Source of the DNA: Muribaculaceae bacterium
GTDB taxonomy: Bacteria > Bacteroidota > Bacteroidia > Bacteroidales > Muribaculaceae
NCBI GenBank assembly: GCA_017454355.1
Contig: JAFTDD010000001.1
Span: 1 to 54,798 of the forward strand
Direction of reading: 5' to 3'
Length of the DNA stretch: 54,798 nt
Position numbers and translations under genes: made by a program. This document shows positions 1-54,795 of the stretch, piece by piece. A model generated the notes under the pieces. The model did not search any database. It worked only from the letters and a program-made list of their open reading frames with translations, and was not told the origin of the DNA. The number at the start of each line of letters is the position of its first letter. Within the stretch, counting starts at the first letter, position 1.

Positions 1-179
1 CCGTCGGCACGCATGGCGACCGCCTTTGGCGAAGCCAGCAGTGCGCCGGTGTCAATGACACCTAACAGCGTGATTTGCTCCTGCCAAATCTTCAGCATCG
101 TGTCATTGAAGCCGTTGACGTACTTCTCGAGCTCTTTCTGCGCTTGTTGCTCGGTGATGTTATTCCCACTCGGCTGCAT
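1..179 (-). CDS. Phage-type hypothetical protein, 5' part only
   Basis: The ATG is at 179-177 on the minus strand and the reading frame is open to the window edge, so the C-terminal part is missing. The visible 59 residues begin MQPSGNNITEQQAQKELEKY and continue into a helical stretch and then LLGVIDTGALLASP. From memory this resembles a small protein of Bacteroidetes prophage modules that has a 'VIDTGALL' motif; I could not check this. It overlaps the end of the upstream gene by 20 nt, so the two belong to one transcript. Function unknown; a structural or head-tail adaptor role would be a guess. Confidence 0.55.
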   Translation of the reverse strand, partial: MQPSGNNITEQQAQKELEKYVNGFNDTMLKIWQEQITLLGVIDTGALLASPKAVAMRAD

Positions 180-933
180 TGTATCTCAAATCGGTATAGA
201 CATCGACGGCGACTTGGAAAAACGCGCAAGCGCAGCCCGAAAAGAAATATCGGTCAATCTCGTTGAACGATATTCTTGGGTCAAGATATATGCACTGCTG
301 CTCCAGTTTGGTTTTCTCCAGAATGAGCAGCGACATATACTGACGGAACAACTCGCGCATAATATCCATGCAGGTATTGCGAGCCGCCATGTCGTCAATC
401 TTGTGGCGCATCGCCATGAAGATTGTCTTGACACGGCGTGTGCGTGGCGTGTTGTTGAGTTCGGTGTAGCCGTTGGCGATGTCGCTCACGCAGACAAACG
501 CTGTGGACTGCTGCATGTTCTGCAGCGCTTCCTGGCGGGTGGCCAGAAAACCTTGATAGAGGTTGTCGGCCACGATGTATATCTCGAATGGCACGCCGGC
601 GAAGTCGGCCGCCAAGGCACGGTGGCGGCCGATGCGCTCCATGCGCACGGGCACCGGCGAGGGCTCGTCGAGCCAGTCGAGCGCATGGGTGGCTCGTTCC
701 ACCTGCTCGGCAGAGAGAATAAACTCTTGATTGCCGTGCCGACAAGCCTAGCCGTTATTGCCGTAGCGGTGCAGGACTTTCAGCCCTGCCCAGCAGCAGA
801 GGCAATAGGCTTTGACTTCGGTTGCGGTGAAGCCCTGCGCGAGCAGGGCGAAAACGTACCGAAGTTGTTTGTCCGATAAATCTTCCCATTTGGTGGGAAG
901 TTTGAGGTCGATAGTGATGGAGCCGGTCTGCAT
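160..933 (-). pseudogene. Phage-module hypothetical protein interrupted by an in-frame TAG
   Basis: Read from the ATG at 933, this is one 258-codon frame broken only by TAG at 750-748. The first part, about 61 codons, contains KLPTKWEDLSDKQLRYVFAL and ends GNNG. After the TAG the same frame continues ACRHGNQEFILSAEQ, then a region with VPFEIYIVADNLYQGFL and a helical C-terminus, to the stop at 160. No ATG follows the TAG closely; the first possible restart is a GTG near 702. The two halves read as one protein family of Bacteroidetes phage modules (recollection, not searched). Either it is a recent nonsense mutation (CAG to TAG would do), or the amber codon is read through. The start codon lies inside an inverted repeat. 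The gene overlaps the next one by 20 nt. Confidence 0.6.
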
Positions 934-2692: not shown

Positions 2693-5515
2693 TTATAGGG
2701 TGGAGGGTGGTTGGGGGGCGAGGTAGGGTTGGAGGGCGCGGGCGGTGTGGCTAGTGGGGGAGAGGGCTACCTGCTCGGGGGTGCCTGTGGCGACGATGTT
2801 GCCGCCGTCGTCGCCACCCTCGGGGCCGAGGTCGATGATGTGGTCGGCGCTCTTGATCACTTCGAGGTTGTGTTCGATGACAATGACAGTGTGTCCGGCC
2901 TCGATGAGGTGTTGGAGCGATTGCATGAGGGTGTTGATGTCGTGGAAATGCAGTCCTGTGGTTGGCTCGTCGAGGATGAAGAGGGTGTGTTCGCGTCGTT
3001 CGCCACTGAGGAAGTAGGCGAGTTTGACTCGCTGGCTCTCGCCTCCGCTGAGGGTGCTTGACGCTTGTCCGAGTTTGATGTAGCCGATGCCGACGTCTTG
3101 TAGAGGTTTGAGGCGTTTGACGATGCGTTGCTCGGTGGCGCCGTTTGCTTGGCTGAAGAAGTCGATTGCTTGGTTGACGGTCATGTCGAGAACGTCGGCG
3201 ATAGAAAGGCCTCGGTAGGTCACTTCAAGTGCATTGCGGCTGTATCGCTTGCCGTGGCAATGCTCGCATGGCAGTGATATATCGGCCATGAATTGCATTT
3301 CGATGGTGATGGTTCCCTCGCCTTTACAATCCTCACATCGTCCGCCTGGCGAGTTGAAGGAGAAGAAGCCAGGTGAGTAACCCATCTGTTTGGCGAGTTG
3401 TTGCTCGGCAAACAGCGCTCGGATTTCATCGAAGGCTTTGAGGTAGGTAGCGGGGTTGCTGCGCGTGCTCTTGCCGATTGGTGTCTGGTCGACGAGTTCA
3501 ACGCCGTTGAGCCTGTTGATGTCTCCTTGCAGGTTGCCGTAGGAGCCCGGGGCGTCTCCTCCGTTGCCGAAGTGGCGGTTGAGGGCTCGATAGAGGATAT
3601 TTGTGACGAGAGTGCTCTTGCCGCTGCCGCTCACTCCGGTGACGGCGGTGATGATGCCGAGCGGGAAGCGAGCGTTGACGTTTTTGAGATTGTTCTCGGT
3701 GGCTCCGGTGATCTCGATATAGCCGATGGGTGGCCGACGGCTGGTTGGGACGGGAATGGACAGGGCGCGGGTGAGGTAGCGTGCGGTGTAACTACGCTCG
3801 GCGCGGCGGAGGGCATTGTTGTCGACCGGACCTTGATAGACCACTTCACCGCCTCGTCGTCCGGCTTCGGGGCCGATGTCGATGAGCCAATCGGCGGCTC
3901 GCATTATTTCCTCGTCGTGCTCGACAACGACGACGGTGTTGCCGAGTTCTTTGAGGCGTTGCAACACGCTGATGAGACGGGCTGTGTCGCGTGGGTGTAG
4001 GCCGATGCTGGGCTCGTCAAGGATATAGATGGATCCGACGAGCGAACTGCCGAGTGATGTGGCGAGGTTGATGCGCTGGTTTTCGCCGCCGCTGAGGGTG
4101 TTTGACGGGCGGTCGAGGGTGAGGTAGCCCAAGCCGACGTCAAGCAGATAAGAGAGGCGGTTGTTGATCTCGGTTACCAATCGCCTTGCGATGGCCGCTT
4201 GATGCTCATCGAGGGTGAGATTGCCGAACCACTGCTTGAGGTCGGAAACGGGCATACTGACGAGTTCGCCGATAGTTTTGCCGCCTATTTTGACGTATGA
4301 CGCTTGTTTCTTGAGTCTCATGCCATTGCAGGTTGGGCAAACAGTCTTGCCGCGGTAGCGAGATTGGAGCACACGGTATTGGATGGCGTAGGCCTTGGAT
4401 TGCACCCACGCGAAGAAGCCGTCGATGCCTCGCCACGAGGTGCCGTTGCCTTTCCAAAGGAAGTCGCGTTCGGCTTGAGTGAGTTGGTAGTAAGGGCGGT
4501 GTATGGGGAAGCCGGCCTCGCTGGCGGCATGTATAAATTCAGTTTTCCACTCGGCCATGACGTTGCCTCGCCACGGGGCGACGGCGTCGTCATAGACCGA
4601 GAGCGCGCGGTTGGGAATAACCAGTTTCTCGTCCACGCCGATGATTGAGCCGAAGCCTTCACATGTCGGGCAGGCTCCGACGGGGTTGTTGAAGTTGAAC
4701 ATCAGTTCGCTTGGCGGCTCAAACTTGATGTTGTCCATCTCAAACCGTTTGCTGTATCGTTTGGCTGTTGGCGCGCCGCCGTCGGCGTTCCACACCAGTA
4801 GCAGGCACTCGTCGCCGCCCTCATAGAAGGCTTGCTCCAACGAGTCGAGCAGTCTCACCTCATCGTCGTGGTTGTGTGTGACTACCATGCGGTCGATGAG
4901 TAGATAATATTTAGAGGAGTCGATTTCGCCCTCGTTGTCGAGCATCTGCGCGATGGTTGAGGTGCGTCCGTTGTCGGCTTGCATTAGCCTTGAGTAGCCT
5001 CCGGCCTGTAGCACTTCGAGTTGTTGTCGTGCGGTGCGTCCCGAGGGGACACGCAGGTCTGTGGCGATTGCGAATCGTGTGCCGTCGTCCAGGCTGTTGA
5101 TATCGGCGATGACATCGGCGGCGGTGTGCTTCTTGACGAGATTACCACTGATTGGAGAGTAGGTGAGGCCGATGCGTGCGAAAAGCAACCGGAGGTAGTC
5201 GTAGATTTCGGTGCTTGTGCCCACAGTAGAGCGACTGTTGCGAGTGGTTGTTCGCTGCTCGATGGCAATCGCCGGCGGCAGTCCGCGGATGAAGTCACAT
5301 TCCGGCTTTGACAGTCGTCCCAGGAATTGGCGTGCGTAACTGGAGAGGCTCTCGACATACCTGCGTTGTCCCTCGGCATAGAGAGTGTCGAAGGCAAGTG
5401 ACGATTTCCCGCTGCCACTCAGTCCGGTAATGACAACGAGTTTGCCTCTTGGGATAGAGACGTCAATATTCTTGAGGTTGTTGGCTCTCGCGCCTTTGAT
5501 GATAATGCTATCCAT
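2693..5515 (-). CDS. uvrA: Excinuclease ABC subunit A (first paralogue)
   Basis: UvrA is the damage-recognition ATPase of nucleotide excision repair; it loads UvrB on distorted DNA. The 940 aa match the usual length. The first Walker [10 protein letters not shown] is at about residues 31-39, with the first signature LSGGENQR near 473. The second Walker [10 protein letters not shown] is near 629 and the second signature LSGGESQR near 823. Zinc-binding cysteine pairs are present: CPTCEGFG and CPTCNGMR in the first half, CEDCKGEG and CEHCHGKRY in the second. All catalytic motifs look intact. The start [16 protein letters not shown] is the standard UvrA N-terminus. It follows the amylase gene by 50 nt and may be co-transcribed with it. 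A second full-length paralogue of equal length lies at 8876-11698. Confidence 0.95.
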
Positions 5516-16182: not shown

Positions 16183-18039
16183 TTACATGTAGAGGCGTTG
16201 GTTCTCGAAGTCAACCTCGTTCTCCAGTTTGCTCACAAAGTCGTCGAGGACTTCCTTGGCGACATCACCTTGAGCGTACTCCTTCTCGGCGTCTTCACGG
16301 ATGAGTTGAATCCACTTGCGCCGCGCGGCGATGTAGTCACCGTGGATGTGCTCAACAAATTCGTCGGTGAGGTGGTCGATGCCGTAGTAGTCGAGAATCA
16401 TGCGGTAACTCCACGCCCAACGCAGTTCGTTGTAGTCGTCGTTGATTTCGCGGAAGCGGGCGAGCACCTCGTCGACGCTCTTGAGCCGCTCGGCCTTGAT
16501 GTCGTCAATCAACCGCGTCAGTTCGCTCTTTGGCATCAGCAATCCGGCCAAGTCGGTCCAATCGCCGGTGCCGCGCGTCGTCTTTGGCGGCGCGGGGTTG
16601 TGGCGCTTGAGCACCGCTCCCATATAGATGCGCAGGGCGAGGTCATAGAACTCGATGCCTTTGCGCAGCAACGGAGCCTTGATAACATACTCGTGGTAGT
16701 TATATGTGCTCACGCGCTCGCCGCTGGCCTTACGCAGGCGTTCGAGAATTTTCTTGCCCTTGAGAACCTCACTGATGGTGAACGGGCTGAGCCAGTCGAA
16801 GTTGACAATGCTCTTGCGTGCGCCCTCGGGGCGCTTGTCGCGCTTGGGCCACTTGCGGATGTCGCGGTATAGTCCCACCGTGGCGAAGTTGCGGCCGGGC
16901 ACAAGATACATCGTGTCGCCGTAAGCAATCAGGTAGGAGAACGGCAGCGAGCGAGTGTCGGGATGGTACATCAGTTTACCGAACAGCACCGAGAACGCGC
17001 CGATATTGGCCGGCATGAGCAGATAGGCTCCGCTGGCTGTCTTGGCACCGCGCTCCAGAGTGCCGTAGTGCAGCGGACCCATCTTGTAGGCGTGGTTGCT
17101 GAAGTTGGTCGCCGACCCGGCGTTGTAGAACGAGAACATGCCGCCGATGAGCAATGTGCTCTTGTGATGGCTGACGCTGAACGGGCCGCAGAAGGCGGCG
17201 CATGCCTCGCCATTGCTCATGTAACTGTTGGCAAAGAACACACTGGCTTCGGCAGTGAAGCCTGTGGCCATTTCGCACGCCTCACCCACGTGGCAATTGC
17301 TCAACTTCACACTGCCGGTGATTTTTGAGCCACCGTTGACAATGGTGTTCTCGCAAATCACGCCAGTGCCGATGTGGATGGGGTTGGCAAGAGTGCTCGC
17401 GATGGTACATTCACTCAGTTTGGAGGCACCGCCAATGTTGCAGCCATCGCCGATGATAGCATTGGTGATTTGCCCGGTGTTGCCAATCTCAACATTGTTG
17501 CCGATGGTGGTGCACTTTGGACGTGTCTCGGCCACCTTGCGGTCGACCATGGCGTTGAGTTTTTCCATCAAGTCCTTGTCACTCTCGTTGTTGACCATCA
17601 GCGCCGCGAACTGGCTGTTGAGGTCGGTGAAGAGGCGCAGGTTGCCGTCGCCGGCCTCGTTGAGCACCGCAATCTTGCAGCCTTGACCGTAGGTGGCTTC
17701 GCCGCGGGTGTCGATCGTGCTCACGTTGCTGATGTGGCACCCGTCGCCGATGGTAACGTTGTTAATGTAGTTGCCGATGTTCTCAATCAGGCAGCCGTCG
17801 CCGATGGTGACGTTGCGCAGCGTGGCATTGTTGATGCCGCAGGACTTCACAAAGCCTTCGCTCACCTCGATGGTGCCGGCACTGCTGCCAAGGCGTGCCG
17901 TGCCATAAAACATGACACGATGCAGGCTATTGGCGTCAAAGCCGTCACCAACGGTGATGTCTTTCCAGTCCTGGGCAATGCAACCGTTGGCCTCGAGCGT
18001 GCGCACCTCGGCTTCAGTCAATTGTCTGTACTTTTTCAT
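16183..18039 (-). CDS. DUF4954 family left-handed beta-helix protein
   Basis: 618 aa. Residues from about 50 to 300 carry repeated hexapeptide-like turns (VTIGDGCLIENI, NNVTIGDGCHISNV, IGNNVEIGNTG, AIIGDGCNIGG), the signature of a left-handed parallel beta-helix as in sugar-nucleotide and acyl transferases. The C-terminal half is helical. The layout matches DUF4954 proteins of Bacteroidetes, whose reaction is not established; a role in carbohydrate or nucleotide-sugar handling is only inferred from the fold. No signal peptide. A -7 element TATCTTTG is at 18089-18082 on the minus strand. Confidence 0.8.
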   Translation of the reverse strand: MKKYRQLTEAEVRTLEANGCIAQDWKDITVGDGFDANSLHRVMFYGTARLGSSAGTIEVSEGFVKSCGINNATLRNVTIGDGCLIENIGNYINNVTIGDGCHISNVSTIDTRGEATYGQGCKIAVLNEAGDGNLRLFTDLNSQFAALMVNNESDKDLMEKLNAMVDRKVAETRPKCTTIGNNVEIGNTGQITNAIIGDGCNIGGASKLSECTIASTLANPIHIGTGVICENTIVNGGSKITGSVKLSNCHVGEACEMATGFTAEASVFFANSYMSNGEACAAFCGPFSVSHHKSTLLIGGMFSFYNAGSATNFSNHAYKMGPLHYGTLERGAKTASGAYLLMPANIGAFSVLFGKLMYHPDTRSLPFSYLIAYGDTMYLVPGRNFATVGLYRDIRKWPKRDKRPEGARKSIVNFDWLSPFTISEVLKGKKILERLRKASGERVSTYNYHEYVIKAPLLRKGIEFYDLALRIYMGAVLKRHNPAPPKTTRGTGDWTDLAGLLMPKSELTRLIDDIKAERLKSVDEVLARFREINDDYNELRWAWSYRMILDYYGIDHLTDEFVEHIHGDYIAARRKWIQLIREDAEKEYAQGDVAKEVLDDFVSKLENEVDFENQRLYM

Positions 18040-26420: not shown

Positions 26421-27131
26421 ATGGACGAGAACGACATCCCTCGCGTTTTGAGAAATCAAGTGCCATACAGAGAACTCTATTTCTATCAGAAATCAGAAGT
26501 CATTTATGCTATGACTTACTATTTCGCCCATAAATATTATGTCGCACGAAAAGACCGCACGGTTGACCAAATCATTCAGGCAGCGCGTAGCGGCAAGCAA
26601 AACATAGTCGAGGGATTCGCCGACGGTGTCACGTCCACTGAACTTCAATTAAAACTGATTAACGTAGCCCGTTCTTCTCTTGAGGAAGTAAGGGCAGACT
26701 ATGAGGACTATATTTTAACCCGTAATCTGTCGTTGTGGGATGCTGCTCATCCTCGTTATGAGGAGATGCTTAACTACTGCCGTTCCCGCAACAGAGTTGA
26801 TGATTATAAGCGTTATTTTGAAAAGTGGGATGCGGAAGAGTTTTGCAATGTGGCACTAACCCTGTTACACATGACCGACAAAATGATGATTTCTTATCTC
26901 AAGGGACTAGAAACGCAATTTATCACACAGGGCGGTATCCGCGAGAGGATGTATGCCGCTCGCACCGGTTATCGCCAAAATATCGATAACGAACTGCAGG
27001 CACTGCGTGATCAAGTAAAGAGCCTGAGGCAACAACTGTCAGTAAAAGAGCAAGAAATTAACCGTCTTCTTGCCGAGAACCACCATCTTGAGGTCCTCCT
27101 CACCCAATCCCGCCATCCCGGAGCCCAATAG
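26421..27131 (+). CDS. Four-helix-bundle protein of the 23S-IVP/Avd-like superfamily with coiled-coil tail
   Basis: 236 aa. Residues about 25-130 contain FYQKSEVIYAMTYYFAHKYY, QIIQAARSGKQNIVEGFADG and LKLINVARSSLEEVRADYED. This is the pattern of four-helix-bundle proteins related to the 23S rRNA intervening-sequence protein. The 'suffix' part to residue 185 is typical of the longer Bacteroidetes version, and residues 190-225 form a coiled coil (LRDQVKSLRQQLSVKEQEIN). The same fold includes Avd, the accessory protein of diversity-generating retroelements, but this one is about twice as long and may be unrelated in function. It stands 947 nt upstream of a gene with a DGR-like variable end. CTAG repeats flank it on both sides. 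Confidence 0.75.
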   Translation: MDENDIPRVLRNQVPYRELYFYQKSEVIYAMTYYFAHKYYVARKDRTVDQIIQAARSGKQNIVEGFADGVTSTELQLKLINVARSSLEEVRADYEDYILTRNLSLWDAAHPRYEEMLNYCRSRNRVDDYKRYFEKWDAEEFCNVALTLLHMTDKMMISYLKGLETQFITQGGIRERMYAARTGYRQNIDNELQALRDQVKSLRQQLSVKEQEINRLLAENHHLEVLLTQSRHPGAQ

Positions 27132-28078: not shown

Positions 28079-30187
28079 ATGAAAAACTTTTACAAAATCC
28101 TGTTTTCTCTGTTGGTGTTGTGCTTAGCGCCACAGTTGGCGCGCGCCTATGATTTTATCTTGGGCGGCATCGCCTATGAGGTGGTGCCGGGCAGCAACAT
28201 GGTGAATGTGGTGAGCCTGCCGCAGCAAGGCGAGAATTACCCCGGCCTTGCGGTGGCGCAGATTCCCGCATCGCTCACCCTTGACGGCATCCCCATGACG
28301 GTGTCGATGATTAGTCAAGGCGCCTTTGCCGGAGCCAAGTCGCTTGTGATGGTGAGTGTGCCGTCGTCGGTCACCTACATCGGCGACCGTGCGTTTTACA
28401 ACTGTCAGTCATTGGTTAATGTGACGTTTGCCTCCGGCCTCATCGCTGTGGGCGACAACGCGTTTGCCGGATGTGTTCGCCTCTCGGCGGTGGCGTTGCC
28501 GTCGACGGTGATCACGCTCGGCGCGAACGTGTTCAACGGCTGCTCGGCAATGAAGTCCGTCACGCTATCCACATCGTTGCTCACGGTGGGGGAGGGGCTG
28601 CTGGACGGCTGCTCGTCACTCTCGGCGTTGACTCTCCCATCGTCGCTCACCGAACTGCCGGCCCGCATGGCACGCGGCTGCACCTCCGTCAAGACCGTCG
28701 CCGTGCCCAACTCGGTGACAACCATCGGCGCCTCGGCCTTCGACGGCTGCACGGCGCTGGCGACCCTGACACTGGGCAACGCCGTCGAGACCATCGGCGG
28801 CCGGGCCTTTTTCGGCGCGGCAATTAAAACGGTGAAGATTCCGAACGCAACAACCTCCATCGGCAATGCGGCATTTCAGAACTGCGCCTCATTGGCGTCG
28901 CTCACGCTGGGAAACAATGTCGCCCGTATAGGAAATTATGCCTTTGACGGAACGATTGTGAAGTCTTTGTCGTTGCCAAGCACATTGAGCAATATCGGCG
29001 CATATGCATTCCAGAACCTGCCGATAAAGTCGTTGTCGGTTCCTGATAAAGTTCAGACGATTGGCGACGGTGCCTTCATGGGGTGCTCGGGATTGACGGC
29101 GCTGACGTTGCCGGCGAGTGTGACGAGCGTAGGGGCGGAGGCGTTTGCCGGTTGCGAGGGCTTTGACCACGTGCGGGTGCTGGCGACCACGGTGCCGGCC
29201 AGCGGCGCGAATATGCTGGGTGACTATAACAAGGTGGTGATTGTGCCCACGGCGGCGAAGTCGGCCTACGCGCAATCTGCCTACTGGGGCTTCTACGACG
29301 TGGCGAGCGAACAGGAGTGGAGCGGCGGCCGCGACTGCAACAGCGACGGCATGGTCGACGTGGGTGACGTTAACTTGGTGCTGGCCGACATCCTCGCCGG
29401 CGGCAAAACCCAGTCGTTGGACGTCAACAACGACGGCAAGGTGGACGTGGGCGACGTGAACAGCGTGCTCGAGTATATCCTCAGCGGCGAGGGTGCCCTG
29501 GTGCGCATCCTGCCCGAAGACAAGGAGTACACCGTGAACGGCGTCAAGTTCAAGATGAAAGGCGTGCAGGGCGGCGTGTTCATGATGGGGCAGGAAGGAG
29601 TCGCCACGCCCGTCCATCAAGTGAAAGTGCCTGATTTCCACATCGGCGAGACCGAGGTGACCGAGGCGCTATGGACGGCGGTGATGGGCACCAACCCGAG
29701 CTATTACGCGCGCGGCGCCACCCATCCGGTTGATAATGTCTCGTGGGGAGACTGCCAGACGTTTATCACGAAGTTGAACGAGTTGACGGGCGAGACGTTC
29801 CGTTTGCCGACCGAGGCCGAGTGGGAGTTTGCGGCCCGCGGCGGCACCAAGAGCGAGGCCTACCAGTATGCCGGCAGCAACGAAATCGACAAGGTGGCGT
29901 GGTACTCCCGCAACAGCGGCAACGTGAAGCATCCGGTGGCGACGAAGGCCGCGAACGAGTTGGGTCTGTACGACATGAGCGGCAATGTGGCGGAATGGTG
30001 CCAGGATTGGCTCGACAACTATAGCAACGGTGCCGTTGTCTATCCGACGGGCCCCACTATGGGCTCCAGCCGCGTGGCCCGCGGCGGCCGCTGGAACGGC
30101 GACGCGGAGGACTGCCGCGTGTCGAACCGGCTCGCCTTCGAGACGTCGTACTGGTACCGCAACCTCGGTTTGCGTCTTGCCCGTTAG
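28079..30187 (+). CDS. Surface protein: BspA-like repeats, dockerin-like module, FGE-fold variable domain
   Basis: 702 aa. MKNFYKILFSLLVLCLAPQL is the start of a signal peptide. Residues about 75-400 are BspA-type leucine-rich repeats (IGDRAFYNCQSL, IGASAFDGCTAL). Two Ca-binding loops, CNSDGMVDVGDVN and VNNDGKVDVGDVN, make a dockerin-like module near 420-475. The C-terminal 215 residues are a formylglycine-generating-enzyme (sulfatase-modifying factor) fold: GETEVTEALWTAVMG, RLPTEAEWEFAARGG, LYDMSGNVAEWCQDW and a final RVARGGRW...LGLRLAR. The FGE fold is a C-type-lectin variant often used as the diversified domain of retroelements, and the last 40 codons here show that pattern. The paired cysteines of catalytic FGE are not evident, so it is a binding domain. 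A close homologue is at 53759-54683. Confidence 0.88.
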   Translation: MKNFYKILFSLLVLCLAPQLARAYDFILGGIAYEVVPGSNMVNVVSLPQQGENYPGLAVAQIPASLTLDGIPMTVSMISQGAFAGAKSLVMVSVPSSVTYIGDRAFYNCQSLVNVTFASGLIAVGDNAFAGCVRLSAVALPSTVITLGANVFNGCSAMKSVTLSTSLLTVGEGLLDGCSSLSALTLPSSLTELPARMARGCTSVKTVAVPNSVTTIGASAFDGCTALATLTLGNAVETIGGRAFFGAAIKTVKIPNATTSIGNAAFQNCASLASLTLGNNVARIGNYAFDGTIVKSLSLPSTLSNIGAYAFQNLPIKSLSVPDKVQTIGDGAFMGCSGLTALTLPASVTSVGAEAFAGCEGFDHVRVLATTVPASGANMLGDYNKVVIVPTAAKSAYAQSAYWGFYDVASEQEWSGGRDCNSDGMVDVGDVNLVLADILAGGKTQSLDVNNDGKVDVGDVNSVLEYILSGEGALVRILPEDKEYTVNGVKFKMKGVQGGVFMMGQEGVATPVHQVKVPDFHIGETEVTEALWTAVMGTNPSYYARGATHPVDNVSWGDCQTFITKLNELTGETFRLPTEAEWEFAARGGTKSEAYQYAGSNEIDKVAWYSRNSGNVKHPVATKAANELGLYDMSGNVAEWCQDWLDNYSNGAVVYPTGPTMGSSRVARGGRWNGDAEDCRVSNRLAFETSYWYRNLGLRLAR

Positions 30188-30212
30188 TCTTAGTTTCCCT
30201 CCTGCAAAAAAT
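30062..30212 (+). other. Candidate DGR variable region, copy A, with conserved 3' flank
   Basis: Compared codon by codon with 54558-54708. Many codons differ at positions 1 and 2 but keep the third base, for example AAC/TAC, GGC/TAC, GAC/AAC, CTC/AGC, TTC/CGC, TAC/AGC and CGC/TAC. All of these can come from AAC by adenine-specific change. Constant blocks between them (TGCCGCGTGTCG, TTGCGTCTTGCCCGTT) are identical. Similarity continues past the stop codon (TTAGTTTCCCTCCTGC), as expected of a site that primes template copying. Confidence 0.7.
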
Positions 30213-30231: not shown

Positions 30232-30297
30232 GTTAGTTTCATGAGATGATTGGGAAAAAGGGGCTTTAGCCCCGCCCAATCATCGCGTGAAACTAAC
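30232..30297 (+). terminator. Long hairpin after the variable region, copy A
   Basis: GTTAGTTTCA (30232-30241) pairs with 30288-30297, GATGATTGGG (30245-30254) pairs with 30275-30284, and GGGGCT pairs with AGCCCC inside. It lies 44 nt after the stop codon. It may terminate transcription, or be the cruciform that helps retrohoming at DGR targets. Confidence 0.7.
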
Positions 30298-30678: not shown

Positions 30679-31583
30679 TAGATAGAGGGGAGGGAGGCGG
30701 TGGCGAAGCGGAGGCGGCCGTATTGGTCGCGGTGGAGGCGGCAGTCGGTGAGGCCGCTGTCTTTCAGGAGTGTGAGGGTTTCGTTAGCCAACAGCGGGTT
30801 GATTTCCAAGTAGAGGCGGCCGCCATTGTAGGGACACAATTCATTGTGTCCATCTTGTGGAGTGAGTGCCGTCATGGCGAGGGTTGCGATGGCTCGGTAG
30901 AACAGCAACGGGTCGTCGTCGGGGACGAAAAGGGCGCTGCGTGGCTCATAGTCGAGCACGTTGGCGTCCATTGTCGCGGCCTCGCTTTGCATCACGTATG
31001 GCGGGTTGCTCACGATGATGTCATAAGTGGAAAGGTTGACCGTTGACCGTTGACCGTTGACCGGGGCGAGAACATCAGCCTGGCGGAAGTTGACGGTGGC
31101 CTTGAGGCGGCTGGCGTTGTCGCGTGCCACGGCGAGGGCCTGCTCGCTGATGTCGATGGCGTCGACAGTGGGGAAGCGCAGCGCGCGCGCCAGCGCGATG
31201 GCGATACAGCCGCTGCCTGTGCCGATGTCGAGCACACGCAGGTCGGTGCGGTCGCCACAGTCGTCCACAATCATGTCGACGAGCATTTCGGTCTCGGGCC
31301 GCGGAATGAGGGTGGACGGTGTGACCTTGAAGTCCATGCCGTGGAAGCGGGCGGTGCCCAGCACATACTGTAGCGGCTCGTGCCGCTCCAGACGGTCAAG
31401 GATTTCCCGCAAACGCTGCGGCGCGAACTCGGGCAGTTCGCTCTGCTCGCGCAGCACGATGTCCACCGGCGAGTAGTTGACGACGGCGAGCATGATGTCG
31501 CGCATCATCGCTTGCGCCTCGTCGGCACCGTAGAGCGGCGTTAGACGTCGCATTATCAATTGAGTAGCCTCGCGTGTTGTCAT
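30678..31583 (-). CDS. prmC: Peptide chain release factor N5-glutamine methyltransferase
   Basis: PrmC (HemK) methylates the GGQ glutamine of release factors with SAM. The helical N-domain is followed by IPRPETEMLVD, SAM motif I LDIGTGSGCIAIALA (about residue 118) and the catalytic NPPY in IIVSNPPYV (about 190). Two segments are not normal for the family. VNGQRSTVN before IIVSNPPY is encoded by four GTTGACC heptamers (31034-31064), and the segment before GGRLYLEIN (HNELCPYN) is encoded by a palindromic repeat (30826-30853) nearly identical to one at 53513-53540. Both keep the frame. The start overlaps the stop of the S4 gene (ATGA), so the two are coupled. Confidence 0.92.
   Translation of the reverse strand: MTTREATQLIMRRLTPLYGADEAQAMMRDIMLAVVNYSPVDIVLREQSELPEFAPQRLREILDRLERHEPLQYVLGTARFHGMDFKVTPSTLIPRPETEMLVDMIVDDCGDRTDLRVLDIGTGSGCIAIALARALRFPTVDAIDISEQALAVARDNASRLKATVNFRQADVLAPVNGQRSTVNLSTYDIIVSNPPYVMQSEAATMDANVLDYEPRSALFVPDDDPLLFYRAIATLAMTALTPQDGHNELCPYNGGRLYLEINPLLANETLTLLKDSGLTDCRLHRDQYGRLRFATASLPSI
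30826..30853. repeat. Palindromic repeat inserted in prmC
   Basis: 28 nt including GGGACACAATTCATTGTGTCC; 27 of 28 positions match 53513-53540. Encodes about nine residues in prmC. Confidence 0.8.
31034..31064. repeat. Four GTTGACC heptamers inserted in prmC
   Basis: On the coding (minus) strand the unit is GGTCAAC, which has no stop codon in any frame; on the other strand every unit contains TGA. Loss or gain of one unit would shift the prmC frame. Confidence 0.85.
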
Positions 31584-32002
31584 GTGATAGATTCATCGTC
31601 AAGGTCGTCGAGGTCATCAAAGCCAAAGAAGGCTTCCTCGGTGAATTGTTTCATCTCGCGGCCTTCCTTTTTTGTGGGGCGCCCCATTCCTTTCTGGCGG
31701 CGGACAAAGCCGCTGATGCGCGCCATCTCGAGCAGTTCACGCTGTTCGGGCGTGGTGAGGTCTTCCAGATAATCAGGCACGAGTTTTGCTCCCACGCGAT
31801 TAGCCGGAATGGCGACCACGCGCAGCGTGAGCGTGATGGGCGGTTTGCGCACCTCGATGACGTCGCCCGCCTTGACGGTGCGCGACGCTTTGACGTTCAT
31901 ACCATCGATGGTGACGCGCCCCAGGCGGCACGCGTCGGTGGCCAGAGTCCGTGTCTTGAACACGCGTGTGGCCCATAGCCACTTGTCAATCCTTGCTTCC
32001 AT
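31580..32002 (-). CDS. S4-domain RNA-binding protein (Hsp15-like)
   Basis: 140 aa. The S4 fold is plain at the N-terminus: RIDKWLWATRVFKTRTLATD, then ACRLGRVTIDGMNVKAS and VKAGDVIEV. The Hsp15 family binds stalled 50S subunits with peptidyl-tRNA. The C-terminus is charged and ends in an Asp-rich tail. It overlaps prmC by 4 nt and lies downstream of pth and rplY, all concerned with ribosomes and tRNA. The symbol hslR could apply but is not certain. Confidence 0.85.
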   Translation of the reverse strand: MEARIDKWLWATRVFKTRTLATDACRLGRVTIDGMNVKASRTVKAGDVIEVRKPPITLTLRVVAIPANRVGAKLVPDYLEDLTTPEQRELLEMARISGFVRRQKGMGRPTKKEGREMKQFTEEAFFGFDDLDDLDDESIT

Positions 32003-38128: not shown

Positions 38129-38680
38129 ATGAATATCCATGAGTTGACCATGAGTTTTCGTGCTGTATTACTTATTGTTGCGGTTGGCCTCATTGCGGTT
38201 TTGGCCGCGTGTGGCGACGACACGTGCTATGACCAGCGCAGCGCGTTGCCCATGGCGCGGTTCTACTACAAGGGTGGTACAACAGCCGTCGCGGTGAGCG
38301 GCCTCACCGTGGGCGGCATAGGGGCTGCCGGCGACAGTCTGATTGTTGACAGCACCACCGTGAGCGAGTTCTATATGCCTCTGGCGCCGCGTGAGAGTGA
38401 GTGCCAATACTTCCTGCGCTTCACCATCGCCCAGGAGGGTGTTGACGGCGAGACCGGCAATACGGTGACCACTTATAGCCACCTCACCGACACGCTCACC
38501 GTGCGGTATGCGGCAAGGCCCTACTTTGCCTCGCGCGAGTGTGGAGCGATGTACTACTACGACATCGACGACTTGTCGGCCACTAACCATATCCTCGACA
38601 GCGTGGCCGTGGCCACCCCAACGATAACCAACGTGTCGCAGGTGAACTTCCGCCTGTTCCTGCCAAATGAGACCGAGTAG
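38129..38680 (+). CDS. DUF6452-like lipoprotein
   Basis: 183 aa from the ATG at 38129; an internal ATG at 38150 (MSFRAVLLIVAVGLIAVLAA then Cys) gives a better lipoprotein signal and may be the true start. The mature part is beta-rich with a few cysteines (DDTCYDQRSALPMARFYY, CGAMYYYDID). It probably sits in the outer membrane with the next gene's product. Its end overlaps the next gene by 14 nt. Confidence 0.7.
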   Translation: MNIHELTMSFRAVLLIVAVGLIAVLAACGDDTCYDQRSALPMARFYYKGGTTAVAVSGLTVGGIGAAGDSLIVDSTTVSEFYMPLAPRESECQYFLRFTIAQEGVDGETGNTVTTYSHLTDTLTVRYAARPYFASRECGAMYYYDIDDLSATNHILDSVAVATPTITNVSQVNFRLFLPNETE

Positions 38681-39479
38681 ACTTTCAATAGCGATAGCGT
38701 TGCTAATGGCGATGATGTCGGCTGTGGCAACAGCCCAGGAACCCGACCGCCGCCGCGTTGTCACGCCCGTGGGGCAGAACAACAACGTGGTGATGCCTCC
38801 GGCGCGCGGCACCAGCGACAAACTCGTGGAGCAGTACCTCAGCGGCGACACGCTGGCCGCCGAGCGTGAGGCGCGCGAGGACTCGATCAAACGGTCCTAC
38901 AAGCGTTATCCGCGACTGACCGACATCGCCGTGCACATCGACTGGCTCGACCTGCTGCTGATGGCCTGCGGACAAAAATATTGCAGCGTGGGAGCCGGTG
39001 TGACACTCAACATGTGGAACCGCCTGCAACCGGTGGCCGAACTGGGCATCGGCCGGGCGAAACTGACGCCAGATGACGGCAACTTCACTTATCGCGGCAA
39101 AGTGTCGCCCTACTTTAAATTGGGAGCAAACTATAATTTCCTGTTCAAGAGCGAACCGGCCTATCAACTGCTCGTGGGACTGCGTTTCGGCCTGTCGCCG
39201 TTCAGTTACGAGGTGACCGACGTCACCATACGCGACTATTATTGGCGACAAGATGCCGAACTTGAGATTACCGGGCAACGCTCCACAGCCATTTGGGGCG
39301 AGTTGTTGGCGGGCATCAAGGTGAAAATCGCGGGCCACGTGTCGCTCGGTTGGATGTTGCGTTACCACTTGATGTTCAGTTGCAAGAACGGCGATGCGGC
39401 ACGCCCCTGGTTTGTGCCGGGCTACGGCACCCGCGACGGCCATCTGCAAGCCACTGCCGCGGTTTATTACACCTTCTGA
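38667..39479 (+). CDS. DUF6048-like outer-membrane beta-barrel protein
   Basis: 270 aa with a signal peptide (SIAIALLMAMMSAVATAQ). The C-terminal half has alternating amphipathic strands and ends in LQATAAVYYTF with a terminal Phe, as outer-membrane barrels do. Cysteines in LMACGQKYCSVGAG are notable. It overlaps the lipoprotein gene by 14 nt, so they are co-translated and likely act together. Function unknown. Confidence 0.72.
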   Translation: MRPSRLSIAIALLMAMMSAVATAQEPDRRRVVTPVGQNNNVVMPPARGTSDKLVEQYLSGDTLAAEREAREDSIKRSYKRYPRLTDIAVHIDWLDLLLMACGQKYCSVGAGVTLNMWNRLQPVAELGIGRAKLTPDDGNFTYRGKVSPYFKLGANYNFLFKSEPAYQLLVGLRFGLSPFSYEVTDVTIRDYYWRQDAELEITGQRSTAIWGELLAGIKVKIAGHVSLGWMLRYHLMFSCKNGDAARPWFVPGYGTRDGHLQATAAVYYTF

Positions 39480-39499: not shown

Positions 39500-39694
39500 A
39501 CACGGGGACGGTTCTTGAGACACGGGGACGGTTCTTCTGTTTCACGACTTGTCGCTGAAACAGAAGAACCGTCCCCACATCGAGGCGGAAGATGCGGTGG
39601 TAACAGTCGTGATAAAAGAATGTTATGCCTCTAAAAGGGGACGGTTCTTCTGTTGTCAGCCGCTTCGCGCTGAAACAGAAGAACCGTCCCCGTG
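39500..39694. repeat. Two-hairpin REP/BIME-like element, copy 1
   Basis: Two palindromes with arms GGGGACGGTTCTTCTGTT and AACAGAAGAACCGTCCCC, at about 39520-39577 and 39637-39692, joined by a 60-nt spacer (starts ACATCGAGGCGGAAGATGCG, ends ATGCCTCTAAAAG). An extra single arm precedes it at 39500-39517. A second whole copy is at 45473-45652. Confidence 0.85.
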
Positions 39695-39740
39695 TGGCAC
39701 AAAATTTGCACGTACTTTTTTGAAAAGCAATTTACTCTAT

Positions 39741-41432
39741 ATGATTGATAAACTCAAGAACATAATATCGCGAGTCAAGTCGCTGCGTGAGCCCCCTCGC
39801 GCCGGCGACGCAATCCGTATGCTCCGCAAGTTTCTCAAGCAACGCGGCTGCCTCTACACCAAGCAGCGCAACGACGAGAGGCAACTCGACCTCTACTTCT
39901 TTGACTATCAAGGTGGACATTTTGTCGCGATAGTTCGTGACGACGTGGCAGGCGTCGAGTTGTCGCTGCCCGGCATCATGTCGGCGCCTATGTCGCGGCT
40001 CGAACTCGTCAGGCAGGCCTGCAACCGCGGTAACGTGGCCCTGAATAAATTTAAGGTTCTCTATATCCCTGATGGTGAGAAGGATGATATCAACGTCCAC
40101 CTGCAGGCGTTCCTGCTTGCGGTGGGTGACGATGGCCAACTTGACGAACTGTTGACCGACTTCTTTGTCGTGCAACGCGACTTCGTGGAACTGTACAAGC
40201 AACTTGAGAAGGAGGCAGATGAACAGCAAAGCAGCGACCCCGAGAGCGCGTCGGCGGCAAACGAACGCCTGATGGCACTCACCCGCGAGCAGGAAATGCG
40301 ACATCTCGAGCATGCCGACGCGGCAGCGCCCGCCGGCTCTCAGCCTATGGCCTATCGCCTCGCTTCTCTGCATGACTCCGCCCTCTCAGTCGGGCGCCTC
40401 GTTGACACCATCGAGGCGCATGGCGCCGTGATTTATCGCCGCCTGACCATCTGCACCTCGGCGGCCAAGGCGGTCATCGTCGACAATGCGACCGAGATTC
40501 ACAACTACGTCGTCACCGCGCCGCTCAACGATGACGCCTTGCTGCAGTGGATACATCTTGTGGTTGAATACACCGTGGGCGATGAAGACGCGCCCATGAT
40601 GATCGAAATCACGCTCTCGCCCGTGGCCGCTCAAGGCACAGCTCGATATGCGATGATGAATGTGGTAATCACCCCCGCCAGGAACTTCGTGGCGCGTGAG
40701 CCCATGCGGCACTACGGCGGCGAGGGCGTCCGCACCGGCGACATCCTCTGTTCGCTCGTGGCAATTGATGCCGACCCAAGCAAGATGAAAGCCGAGTTTG
40801 ACTATATCATCGGCGAGATTGAGCGCAAGGAGGCCGCCGGCGAGGACCTGACCACCGAGGAGGAGCAACTCTACGTGTTCAGCCGCAACGAGACCCTCGC
40901 CGCCTCGCTGCTCTACTGGGGGCGCAAGTCTCTGCTCGAGCAGCGGTGGCTGGACGCGCTGTTGATGCTCGAGACCGCATGCGACCTCACCCGCAAGGGA
41001 TATTATAACGGCGACAGCACCTATTGCCGACATTACGCCTCGGCCTGTTACTTCGTGGCAATGGCCGCCAACAAGCTCGGCCTCTACGACACCGCCCTCA
41101 AATATATCTCTCCGTTTGCGCGCGACGGACGCATCGCCCATGCCCGCGAGTGGCTCGTCGCATTGGCCGGTGCGCGCGACTTGCGCCTGTTCGACGAGTT
41201 GGAGCGGTTTCGCAACGATATCAACGAGGCCTACGACAACAACGACGATATGCCGGAGGAGTTGATTGATTTTGTCAACTTCATGAGGCGTTGCCGCGCA
41301 TGGGCCCTGGTGGAGTTTGGAGACTACGATGAGGCTCGCAAGATGTTGCGGTCACTGCTGCGAGATGACGCCAACCGCGACTTCGCCGTCGCCGAACTGA
41401 AGTATCTCGCCTCCATCCTGCCCGGCGAATAA
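39741..41432 (+). CDS. Large hypothetical protein, 563 aa, TPR-like C-terminus
   Basis: I start at MIDKLKNIISRVKSLREPPR (39741); the frame is open further upstream only because the repeat element has no stop there. It has no signal peptide. Residues about 1-170 look alpha/beta, 175-215 are a charged helix (LEKEADEQQSSDPES), and the middle is beta-rich. Residues about 390-560 are helical pairs resembling TPRs (SLLYWGRKSLLEQRWLDALL, ASACYFVAMAANKLGLYDTA). No family recognised. It is separated from the upstream operon by the two-hairpin element. Confidence 0.65.
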   Translation: MIDKLKNIISRVKSLREPPRAGDAIRMLRKFLKQRGCLYTKQRNDERQLDLYFFDYQGGHFVAIVRDDVAGVELSLPGIMSAPMSRLELVRQACNRGNVALNKFKVLYIPDGEKDDINVHLQAFLLAVGDDGQLDELLTDFFVVQRDFVELYKQLEKEADEQQSSDPESASAANERLMALTREQEMRHLEHADAAAPAGSQPMAYRLASLHDSALSVGRLVDTIEAHGAVIYRRLTICTSAAKAVIVDNATEIHNYVVTAPLNDDALLQWIHLVVEYTVGDEDAPMMIEITLSPVAAQGTARYAMMNVVITPARNFVAREPMRHYGGEGVRTGDILCSLVAIDADPSKMKAEFDYIIGEIERKEAAGEDLTTEEEQLYVFSRNETLAASLLYWGRKSLLEQRWLDALLMLETACDLTRKGYYNGDSTYCRHYASACYFVAMAANKLGLYDTALKYISPFARDGRIAHAREWLVALAGARDLRLFDELERFRNDINEAYDNNDDMPEELIDFVNFMRRCRAWALVEFGDYDEARKMLRSLLRDDANRDFAVAELKYLASILPGE

Positions 41433-53259: not shown

Positions 53260-53758
53260 ATTTCCTAAATTTCGAGACTCGATATTTTCTCTCTCGATAA
53301 TTATCAAAAATTCACGAAAAATATTTTATCTCGTAAATTTTCGTAAATCCACGTAAATCTTTACGGATTTTACGTGAGAGATTTACGATAACTCACGGAA
53401 ATTCACGGGCGATAATTAATATTTTTCGGAAATTCTCGTTAATTTTCAAGAGAAAATTTCGAGTTACGGAATTCTGGTTCCGAAAGTGGGCAATGACTTG
53501 AATAGCAGCATTTTGTAGGGACACAATTTATTGTGTCCATGTGCCGCGGGGGTGGACACAATAAATTGTGTCCCTACAAAACGCTGGCTCATGTCTGAGA
53601 ACAAATGCGGTGGCACCTTGCGGCGGCGTGTGTTCCGGATAAATTAACATATCTTAACACGGGAAGTGGTGAAATTTTGCTAATTTTGTGAATAGAATGT
53701 GGGCAATGGCCCGCGGTGGTAACCGAAATATCACATTATCAACACAATATCTATTTTT
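53260..53758. repeat. Gene-free spacer with two repeat families
   Basis: 53285-53425 is the ACGTAAA/TTTACGTG AT-rich array. 53511-53581 is a perfect inverted repeat with two 29-nt arms made of TTGTAGGGACACAATTTATT and the rest, enclosing a 13-nt GC-rich loop; the same arm is inserted in prmC. From 53640 to 53758 the DNA is a normal leader, with a -7-like TAATTTTG at 53682-53689. No gene seen. Confidence 0.75.
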
Positions 53759-54683
53759 ATGAGAAAGACAACCTTAATGACAATTATGCTGGCGGTAAGT
53801 CTGGCGACTTCGGCTGCCACTACAGAATTGAACGGCGATGCGTCGTCAGTCGGTCAGAGAGCGGTTTGACCTGAACGATGACAAGCAGGTCGACGTTGGT
53901 GACGTGAACCTGCTGCTTGACTACATCCTTGACCCGTCGGCCTTTAACGACGAGCCGCAGGTCGAATCCAAGACCTATACTGTGAACGGCGTCACATTTA
54001 AGATGGTTGCGGTTGCGGGCGGCACGTTCACGATGGGTGCGACTTCGGAGCAGGGCAGCGACGCTTACAATTCCGAGAAACCGGCACATCAGGTGACGTT
54101 GAGCGACTACTGGATTGGTGAGACAGAGGTTACCGAAGGCTTGTGGACGGCCGTGATGGGCAGCAACCCGAGTTACTACAATAAGGGTGACATTTATCCG
54201 GTGGAGTATGTCACTTGGAATGATTGCCAGACGTTTATCAGCAAGTTGAACTCGTTGACGGGCGAGACATTCCGCCTGCCAACGGAGGCCGAGTGGGAGT
54301 TCGCGGCCCGTGGCGGCACTCAGAGCCAGGGCTATAAATACTCCGGCAGCAACACCATCGGCGACGTGGCGTGGTATTATGTTAACGCGTATAATGTCGG
54401 TTCAAGTAGTCCGAATTATGGTAAGCATCCTGTCGCGACGAAGGCCGCAAACGAATTAGGCCTGTACGACATGAGCGGCAACGTGTGGGAGTGGTGTCAG
54501 GATTGGTACGGCAGTTATAGCGGTGCCGCGCAGACGGATCCGACCGGCTCAATAGCGGGCTCCAGCCGCGTGAAGCGCGGCGGCAGTTGGTACTACAACG
54601 CGGGGAACTGCCGCGTGTCGTGTCGGAGCCGCCGCACGCCGTCGTACCGCAGCTACAACCTTGGCTTGCGTCTTGCCCGTTGA
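53759..54683 (+). pseudogene. Dockerin-like/FGE-fold surface protein with a frameshift after the signal peptide
   Basis: A signal peptide is encoded from the ATG at 53759 (MRKTTLMTIMLAVSLATSAA), but that frame meets TGA at 53867. The rest of the protein lies one base forward, open from about 53838 to 54683. It has one Ca loop LNDDKQVDVGDVN and then an FGE-fold domain: FKMVAVAGGTFTMGATSE, GETEVTEGLWTAVMG, RLPTEAEWEFAARGG, LYDMSGNVWEWCQDW and the variable end RVKRGGSW...LGLRLAR. The frames overlap between about 53838 and 53866, so a single-base indel there splits the gene; it could be a real mutation, a phase switch or a sequencing error. The FGE part closely resembles 28079-30187, but the BspA repeats are absent. 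Confidence 0.75.
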
Positions 54684-54708
54684 TTTAGTTTCCCTCCTGC
54701 GAAAAATA
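54558..54708 (+). other. Candidate DGR variable region, copy B, with conserved 3' flank
   Basis: Partner of 30062-30212. Codons in the variable stretch include TAC TAC AAC, GGG AAC, AGC CGC CGC ACG and AGC TAC AAC, nearly all ending in C or G where copy A ends in the same base. The flank TTGCGTCTTGCCCGTT and TTAGTTTCCCTCCTGC are shared. Confidence 0.7.
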
Positions 54709-54717
54709 AAAAATTAA

Positions 54718-54795
54718 AAACAATCGTTTGTGTGGGACAGCCGCCGCGTGTGGCGTCAAGCCCACGCGCGAGCGGTCCCACACAAACGATTGTTT
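54718..54795 (+). terminator. Long hairpin after the variable region, copy B
   Basis: A 21-bp perfect stem (54718-54738 with 54775-54795; arm AAACAATCGTTTGTGTGGGA and C) around a GC-rich inner part that can also pair. It starts 35 nt after the stop codon, in the same place as the hairpin after copy A, but its sequence is different. Confidence 0.75.

Follow-up and report, generated by a model that had tools for sequence, protein, structure and literature searches.

Two FGE-domain genes of a Muribaculaceae bacterium as very probable targets of a diversity-generating retroelement of a type found in its genus

Introduction

Diversity-generating retroelements (DGRs) work by error-prone copying of a template RNA, with random bases placed opposite A. 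The stretch of DNA considered here, referred to as the window, comprises the 54,798 nucleotides of contig JAFTDD010000001.1 in the assembly GCA_017454355.1 of an uncultured gut Muribaculaceae bacterium (G000), and contains two genes for surface-type proteins of the formylglycine-generating enzyme (FGE) family whose 3' ends differ in a manner reminiscent of such rewriting. This raises the question of whether the two tails, named VR1 and VR2 (Table 1), were written by a DGR and, if so, where the writer resides. The explanation that accounts best for the data, with a probability of about 0.93, is that VR1 and VR2 are target repeats of a type of DGR, consisting of an FGE-family target, an HRDC gene, a reverse transcriptase (RT) gene and a template, that is found in the same genus.

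Table 1. Features of the two target loci (positions in the window).
Feature	Position	Strand	Remarks
Target gene 1	28079..30187	+	BspA-type leucine-rich repeats, a dockerin-like stretch and an FGE domain with VR1 at its end
VR1, variable repeat including stop codon	30062..30187	+	A-site and third-base tests
Probable initiation site, conserved VR1 end (LGLRLAR and stop)	30164..30187	+	Placed by the end of homology in G017/G083
Block shared with VR2 after the stop	30190..30205	+	Exact pair, 0.01 expected
Inverted repeat after VR1	30232..30297	+	Arms of 23 nt with 91% complementarity; may be a target hairpin (weak evidence)
Target gene 2 (open frame)	53838..54683	+	Weak dockerin-like stretch, FGE domain ending in VR2
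VR2, variable repeat including stop codon	54558..54683	+	A-site and third-base tests, same locus in G087
Probable initiation site, conserved VR2 end	54660..54683	+	Placed as for VR1
Block shared with VR1 after the stop	54685..54700	+	Exact pair, 0.01 expected
Inverted repeat after VR2	54718..54795	+	Arms of 33 nt, 88% complementary; contig ends 3 bases later

The target genes and their neighborhood

Both target genes are related to the formylglycine-generating enzyme by matches at the level of the family (Pfam FGE-sulfatase). In target gene 1, LRR_5 and FGE-sulfatase score above the Pfam cut-off and Dockerin_1 slightly below it. The FGE-sulfatase match extends to the last residue, and the variable repeats are therefore predicted to form the end of a C-type-lectin-like domain. 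The closest solved relative of the VR2 protein is TvpA from Treponema (E=1.5e-36), which comes ahead of the true FGE enzymes. TvpA (PDB 2y3c) is the target of the Treponema denticola DGR, with the same FGE/C-type-lectin fold and, by alignment, a variable end at the same place.

Several observations concern the surroundings of these genes. A signal-peptide-like start at 53759 (window 53759-53900) lies in a different frame from the dockerin and FGE part of the VR2 gene, which speaks against the preferred explanation. A third FGE tail, truncated, decayed and lacking the front part of the domain, is found elsewhere in the assembly (contig C31, around 5205-5450), and the palindromic element beside it also occurs upstream of the VR2 gene (window ~53511-53586). 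The flank that follows the VR1 gene (window 30690-31587) is present with 92% identity in the close relative G087 (contig C16, 35821-36685), with the VR1 gene itself unmatched beside it, so that near relatives may differ in whether they possess target gene 1. Positions 26421-27128, which precede the VR1 gene, encode a four-helix-bundle suffix-domain protein (TIGR04258). This protein was considered as a candidate for the accessory protein Avd and rejected, as it matches TIGR04258 and TIGR02436 and not the Avd models that are matched by the Avd of Prosthecochloris.

The codon pattern of the two tails

The tails sit where the preliminary description, made from the sequence alone, had placed them, and align without gaps over 41 codons and the stop. 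In both genes, the variable block starts at the same codon as the templates of two relatives (G017 and G083). Between VR1 and VR2, the differences at the first, second and third codon positions amount to 15, 10 and 6, and 16 of the 18 changed codons are non-synonymous. In the remainder of the aligned domain (198 codons) the corresponding counts are 46, 56 and 88. Third positions thus differ in 6 of 41 codons of the tail as against 88 of 198 in the body (p=3.5e-4), an indication that both tails derive from a common source by copying that took place after the bodies had diverged.

Some details of the initial reading have to be adjusted. It had counted about three exceptions to the rule of the unchanged third base, where there are six such codons, four of them non-silent and two silent. 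It had also described the differences in the body as mostly third-position and silent, which is correct for the GETEVTE...NPSYY stretch that it quoted and does not extend to the whole domain, in which third positions contribute 88 of 190 differences and only 47 of 116 changed codons are silent.

A complete cassette in two congeners

The genus was searched in 101 genomes, G000 included, with Pfam RVT_1 and with an RT alignment. The RVT_1 search revealed an RT adjoining tail matches in two genomes, G017 (contig C30) and G083 (contig C23). Both loci have the same order: an FGE target, an inverted repeat, an HRDC gene, an overlapping RT gene and an AAC-rich template, whose start overlaps the stop codon of the RT gene. 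The HRDC gene encodes 153 or 158 amino acids, scores above the cut-off of Pfam HRDC and starts 128 (G017) and 156 (G083) bases after the stop of the target. Both templates follow the pattern GSNRVNRGGSWNNNARNCRVSNRNNNS(A or P)DNRNNNLGLRLA, in which 14 codons are AAC or AAT. Mismatches between template and target fall predominantly on template A, in 18 out of 19 cases for G017 and in 16 and 17 out of 21 for the two targets of G083.

The complete cassette is present in these two genomes out of the 101 searched. The RT alignment is matched at E up to 1e-10 by 21 of 101 genomes, but full scores (E below 1e-200) are reached only in G017 and G083, the next best being 2e-36, and several of the weaker matches belong to a second kind of DGR. 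The DNA of the template, in contrast, is matched at E up to 0.001 by 42 of the 101 genomes, not every match having been checked as a tail. Pieces of the cassette were found in four further genomes: a cut HRDC gene in G050 (contig C47), G069 (C43) and G078 (C25), with no RT match in the following ~1.5 kb, and a template fragment ~310 bases after a tail in G096 (C51), where the 8.5 kb inspected contain neither an RT nor an HRDC match. These scraps indicate that loss of the cassette happens within the genus.

Variation follows the adenines of the template

The tests of A sites were performed with the templates of the congeners G017 and G083, and not with one from the genome under study. VR1 and VR2 differ at 21 of 33 template-A sites and at 10 of 90 other sites (p=1.8e-8); with the template of G083 the counts are 20 of 33 and 11 of 90 (p=2.2e-7). 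Of the 14 codons opposite template AAN, all have C as the last base in VR1, where codon usage for its residues would give 9.3, and 12 do so in VR2, where 8.3 would be expected. The two VR2 codons without a terminal C and the ten differences that fall outside template A sites count against the preferred explanation. The latter also weaken the earlier proposal that both tails were written from one shared AAC-rich template, the template used in the comparison being that of a congener.

The same pattern was observed for the family as a whole in 44 of 54 rows, the two templates, the pair of FGE genes from contigs C79 and C64 described below and six rows of other length having been dropped. In these 44 genus tails, residue entropy reaches 3.21 bits at the 14 template-AAN codons and 0.71 at the other 27, and C ends 549 of 616 template-AAN codons, where 394.8 (sd 11.3) would be expected from codon usage.

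These results bear on a rival explanation, namely that the tails came to differ without any DGR, through ordinary selection or through recombination between FGE paralogues. The genome does hold an FGE gene family, with 11 matches, and the gene bodies show signs of recombination among paralogues. Neither process, however, predicts a constant C in the third base of template AAN codons or a clustering of the differences at template A sites, and this alternative appears very improbable.

The same locus in a close relative

An additional line of evidence comes from G087, whose contig C53 contains the upstream neighbor of VR2 (95% identity over 1600 bases) together with the VR2 gene region itself (89.6% identity over 1283 bases). 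The differences between the two copies at codon positions 1, 2 and 3 are 12, 5 and 49 in the body (208 codons) and 13, 12 and 4 in the tail (41 codons). With a congener template as reference, 21 of 33 template-A sites differ as against 8 of 90 others (p=2.3e-9). Since the template-A sites are near saturation and the other sites of the tail are not, the writing looks recent.

For comparison, another FGE pair from the same two genomes (G000 contig C79 and G087 contig C64), 98.8% identical over 3432 bases, shows far less change in its tail, which further argues against an origin without a DGR: within its terminal 41 codons, 3 of 82 sites at codon positions 1 and 2 differ, compared to 25 of 82 for VR2 (p=4.9e-6). 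The tail of this pair nevertheless changes more than its body, where 0 of 376 first and second positions differ (p=0.0056). The pair therefore serves as a control by degree only, and it may itself once have been a target.

The body of the VR2 gene differs from the G087 copy by ~11% and its upstream flank by 5%, implying that recombination among paralogues has probably acted as well. As a consequence, a shared locus does not necessarily imply that the VR2 gene has descended unbroken over its entire length.

Taken together, the AAC-rich template and RT of two congeners, the A-site test, the third-base test and the comparison of the same locus in G087 strongly support the original assignment of both tails to A-mutagenized DGR targets on FGE/C-type-lectin-like domains.

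Downstream of the stop codon

The preliminary description had also noticed homology past the stop codon and had seen in it the initiation site. The homology is real: TTAGTTTCCCTCCTGC occurs at 30190 and 54685, two matches where 0.01 would be expected, allowing up to two mismatches. It is probably not the initiation site, as the homology between template and target stops 4 bases (G017) and 15 bases (G083) beyond the stop codon. The initiation site is thus more likely to lie in the conserved end encoding GLRLAR, and, judging from sequence alone, the LGLRLAR-coding end of the tails is its most likely position. The TTAGTTTCCCTCCTGC block, which starts 2 bases past either stop, is a target-side flank.

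Inverted repeats follow both tails. For the DGR of Bordetella phage BPP-1, a hairpin with an 8-bp stem and a 4-nt loop has been described after the target repeat, and stems of 7-10 bp are given for other phage DGRs (PMC3240598); the arms in the window are considerably longer, with 23 and 33 nt. These repeats first looked like a strong sign and are treated as a weak one, since their score is equaled after 6 of 23 other genes of the window, compared to 23 of 49 tails (p=0.12; 5 of 54 rows dropped, namely two templates, the two C79/C64 tails and one other FGE). The regions after both templates fold no better than shuffled sequences. Long inverted repeats were also observed after the genes at 16183-18039 (-), 38667-39479 (+), 39549-41432 (+) and 13-879 (+), and the genome seems to be rich in intergenic palindromes.

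The whereabouts of the writer

A DGR RT and its template would be expected in the genome, and neither was found in its assembly, which comprises 2.7 Mb in 102 contigs and is 89% complete, with ~11% of the genome missing. In this assembly there are no RVT_1 matches, no RT-alignment matches and no match to the HRDC accessory gene, and a template search by DNA and by pattern returned only the two VRs plus weak or chance matches. The outcome that the preliminary description had named as refuting its reading, a genome without DGR RT or template, therefore applies to this incomplete assembly. The writer is either lost or located in the unassembled part, two possibilities of similar probability.

According to the first of these possibilities, the writing cassette was lost from the lineage and the tails are frozen relics that now drift, for which the chances are about even. 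Besides the failure to find RT, HRDC gene or template, this would agree with the RT-less scraps in G050, G069, G078 and G096, the ten non-A differences between VR1 and VR2, the start of the VR2 gene divided between frames and the decayed third tail on contig C31. Isolates of Treponema denticola with targets and without the RT provide a parallel (PMC4891356). Against it stand the incompleteness of the assembly, the contig stopping just before the expected HRDC start, and the near saturation of the template-A sites, and not of other sites, relative to G087.

Alternatively, the cassette would be present in the organism but unassembled or unbinned, a reading that is slightly less likely. Beyond the 89% completeness, it draws on the end of the contig at the inverted repeat after VR2, in a position where the unit of HRDC gene, RT and template comes right after such a target in G017 and G083; the sequence ends 115 bases past VR2, short of the 128 and 156 bases at which the HRDC gene starts in those genomes. 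In G087, however, the contig with the VR2 locus continues for some 370 bases beyond the stop with no HRDC or RT match, and full-score RTs are, relative to template DNA, fewer in the genus than incompleteness alone seems to give.

Relation to known DGRs

This kind of DGR is already known from the TvpA/HRDC DGRs of Treponema, and the new aspect is that a single genus shows many targets but few recovered writers. In T. denticola, the HRDC gene overlaps the RT, as in G017 and G083, and HRDC-bearing DGRs occur there together with remote targets and targets lacking an RT (PMC4891356). The two systems differ in that Treponema has its accessory gene between template and RT, while the templates of G017 and G083 overlap the stop of the RT and extend past it. 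The DGR on plasmid pPAES01 from Prosthecochloris aestuarii shows the same order of FGE-family gene (as annotated), HRDC gene and RT, but has avd between the latter two, whereas the HRDC gene of G017 and G083 runs directly into the RT. The BPP-1 system (mtd, brt) has a related RT, with 33% identity across 85% of the query, and differs in its phage tail target and in a template that comes before the RT. By gene order only, the G017 and G083 cassettes correspond to DiGReF Group 3, in which the template overlaps an end of the RT frame; cassettes of this arrangement, and others with broken RTs, are on record (PMC3521204). In the open full-text literature, with subscription papers and preprints outside the scope, a search for DGR together with Muribacul- returned a liver-disease review only.

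A scan of named genomes retrieved 80 loci with related RTs, many of them from Bacteroidota by record title. Among the 29 examined, 27 have a template/target pair (the exceptions being L174 and L177). In 25 of them, template A accounts for 75% or more of the mismatches, with L180 (12 of 17) and L182 (14 of 20) below this value; one survey describes a share of 75% or more as the overwhelming rule for DGRs (PMC8144416). Of the ten other cassettes compared, seven have templates with 82-88% DNA identity to the G017 template and RTs 50-58% identical to the G017 RT; in the remaining three the values are 72-79% and 46-53%.

In a tree of 31 RT rows, those of G017 and G083 group with template-paired RTs (13 rows, support 84/90). 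The RTs of BPP-1 and Prosthecochloris stand beside this group, not inside it, and DGR-labeled rows require two changes, the interposed group being another kind of DGR. The RTs of G017 and G083 are not mutual nearest rows, although the fork that separates them is weak (85/77), and this is the pattern that moving cassettes would give. A phage or plasmid origin of the cassette was considered and rejected: the RT matches in those collections are all below 60% identity, and the 16 viral-contig loci reach at most 35% to this type.

The second kind of DGR in the genus (L109-L115, L118, L120 and L128) is ordered target, template, RT in the loci translated, with an unrelated target tail, and 80-100% of its template/target mismatches are at A, or at T on the other strand. 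NCBIfam and PADLOC models label its RTs only as generic or UG-type. Genus RTs with frames of 435-535 amino acids were also discarded as writers of VR1 and VR2: A- (or T-) biased template/target pairs occur at 10 of the 14 loci scanned, the target tail is unrelated in the five that were translated, and none was found in the genome under study.

Proposed mechanism and implications

On the preferred explanation, an error-prone RT would copy an AAC-rich template RNA with random bases placed opposite A, and the resulting cDNA would replace the 3' end of the target, homing at the conserved GLRLAR-coding end. Homing into the target 3' end and its requirements on the target have been treated for other DGRs (PMC3240598). 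The two surface proteins would then display the ~14 variable residues on the ligand face of their C-type-lectin-like fold, and the writer would have reached VR1 and VR2 from another place in the genome, remote targets being also a feature of the Treponema system.

A more speculative proposal, rather unlikely as it stands, is that the genus holds a standing library of FGE adhesin tails, near constant in their non-A bases, and that itinerant cassettes of HRDC gene, RT and template, with very similar templates, rewrite any resident target in trans before they decay. If this were true, hypervariation would be shared and supplied intermittently, instead of belonging to individual genomes.

The imbalance between abundant targets and scarce writers makes this genus an interesting case, and the analysis illustrates that, even when the RT is not available, DGR targets can be recognized and their writing situated with respect to a close relative. 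The presence of template DNA in 42 of 101 genomes (not all checked as tails), compared to a full-score RT in 2 of 101, suggests that RT-based counts of DGRs miss DGR-made diversity in gut Bacteroidales.
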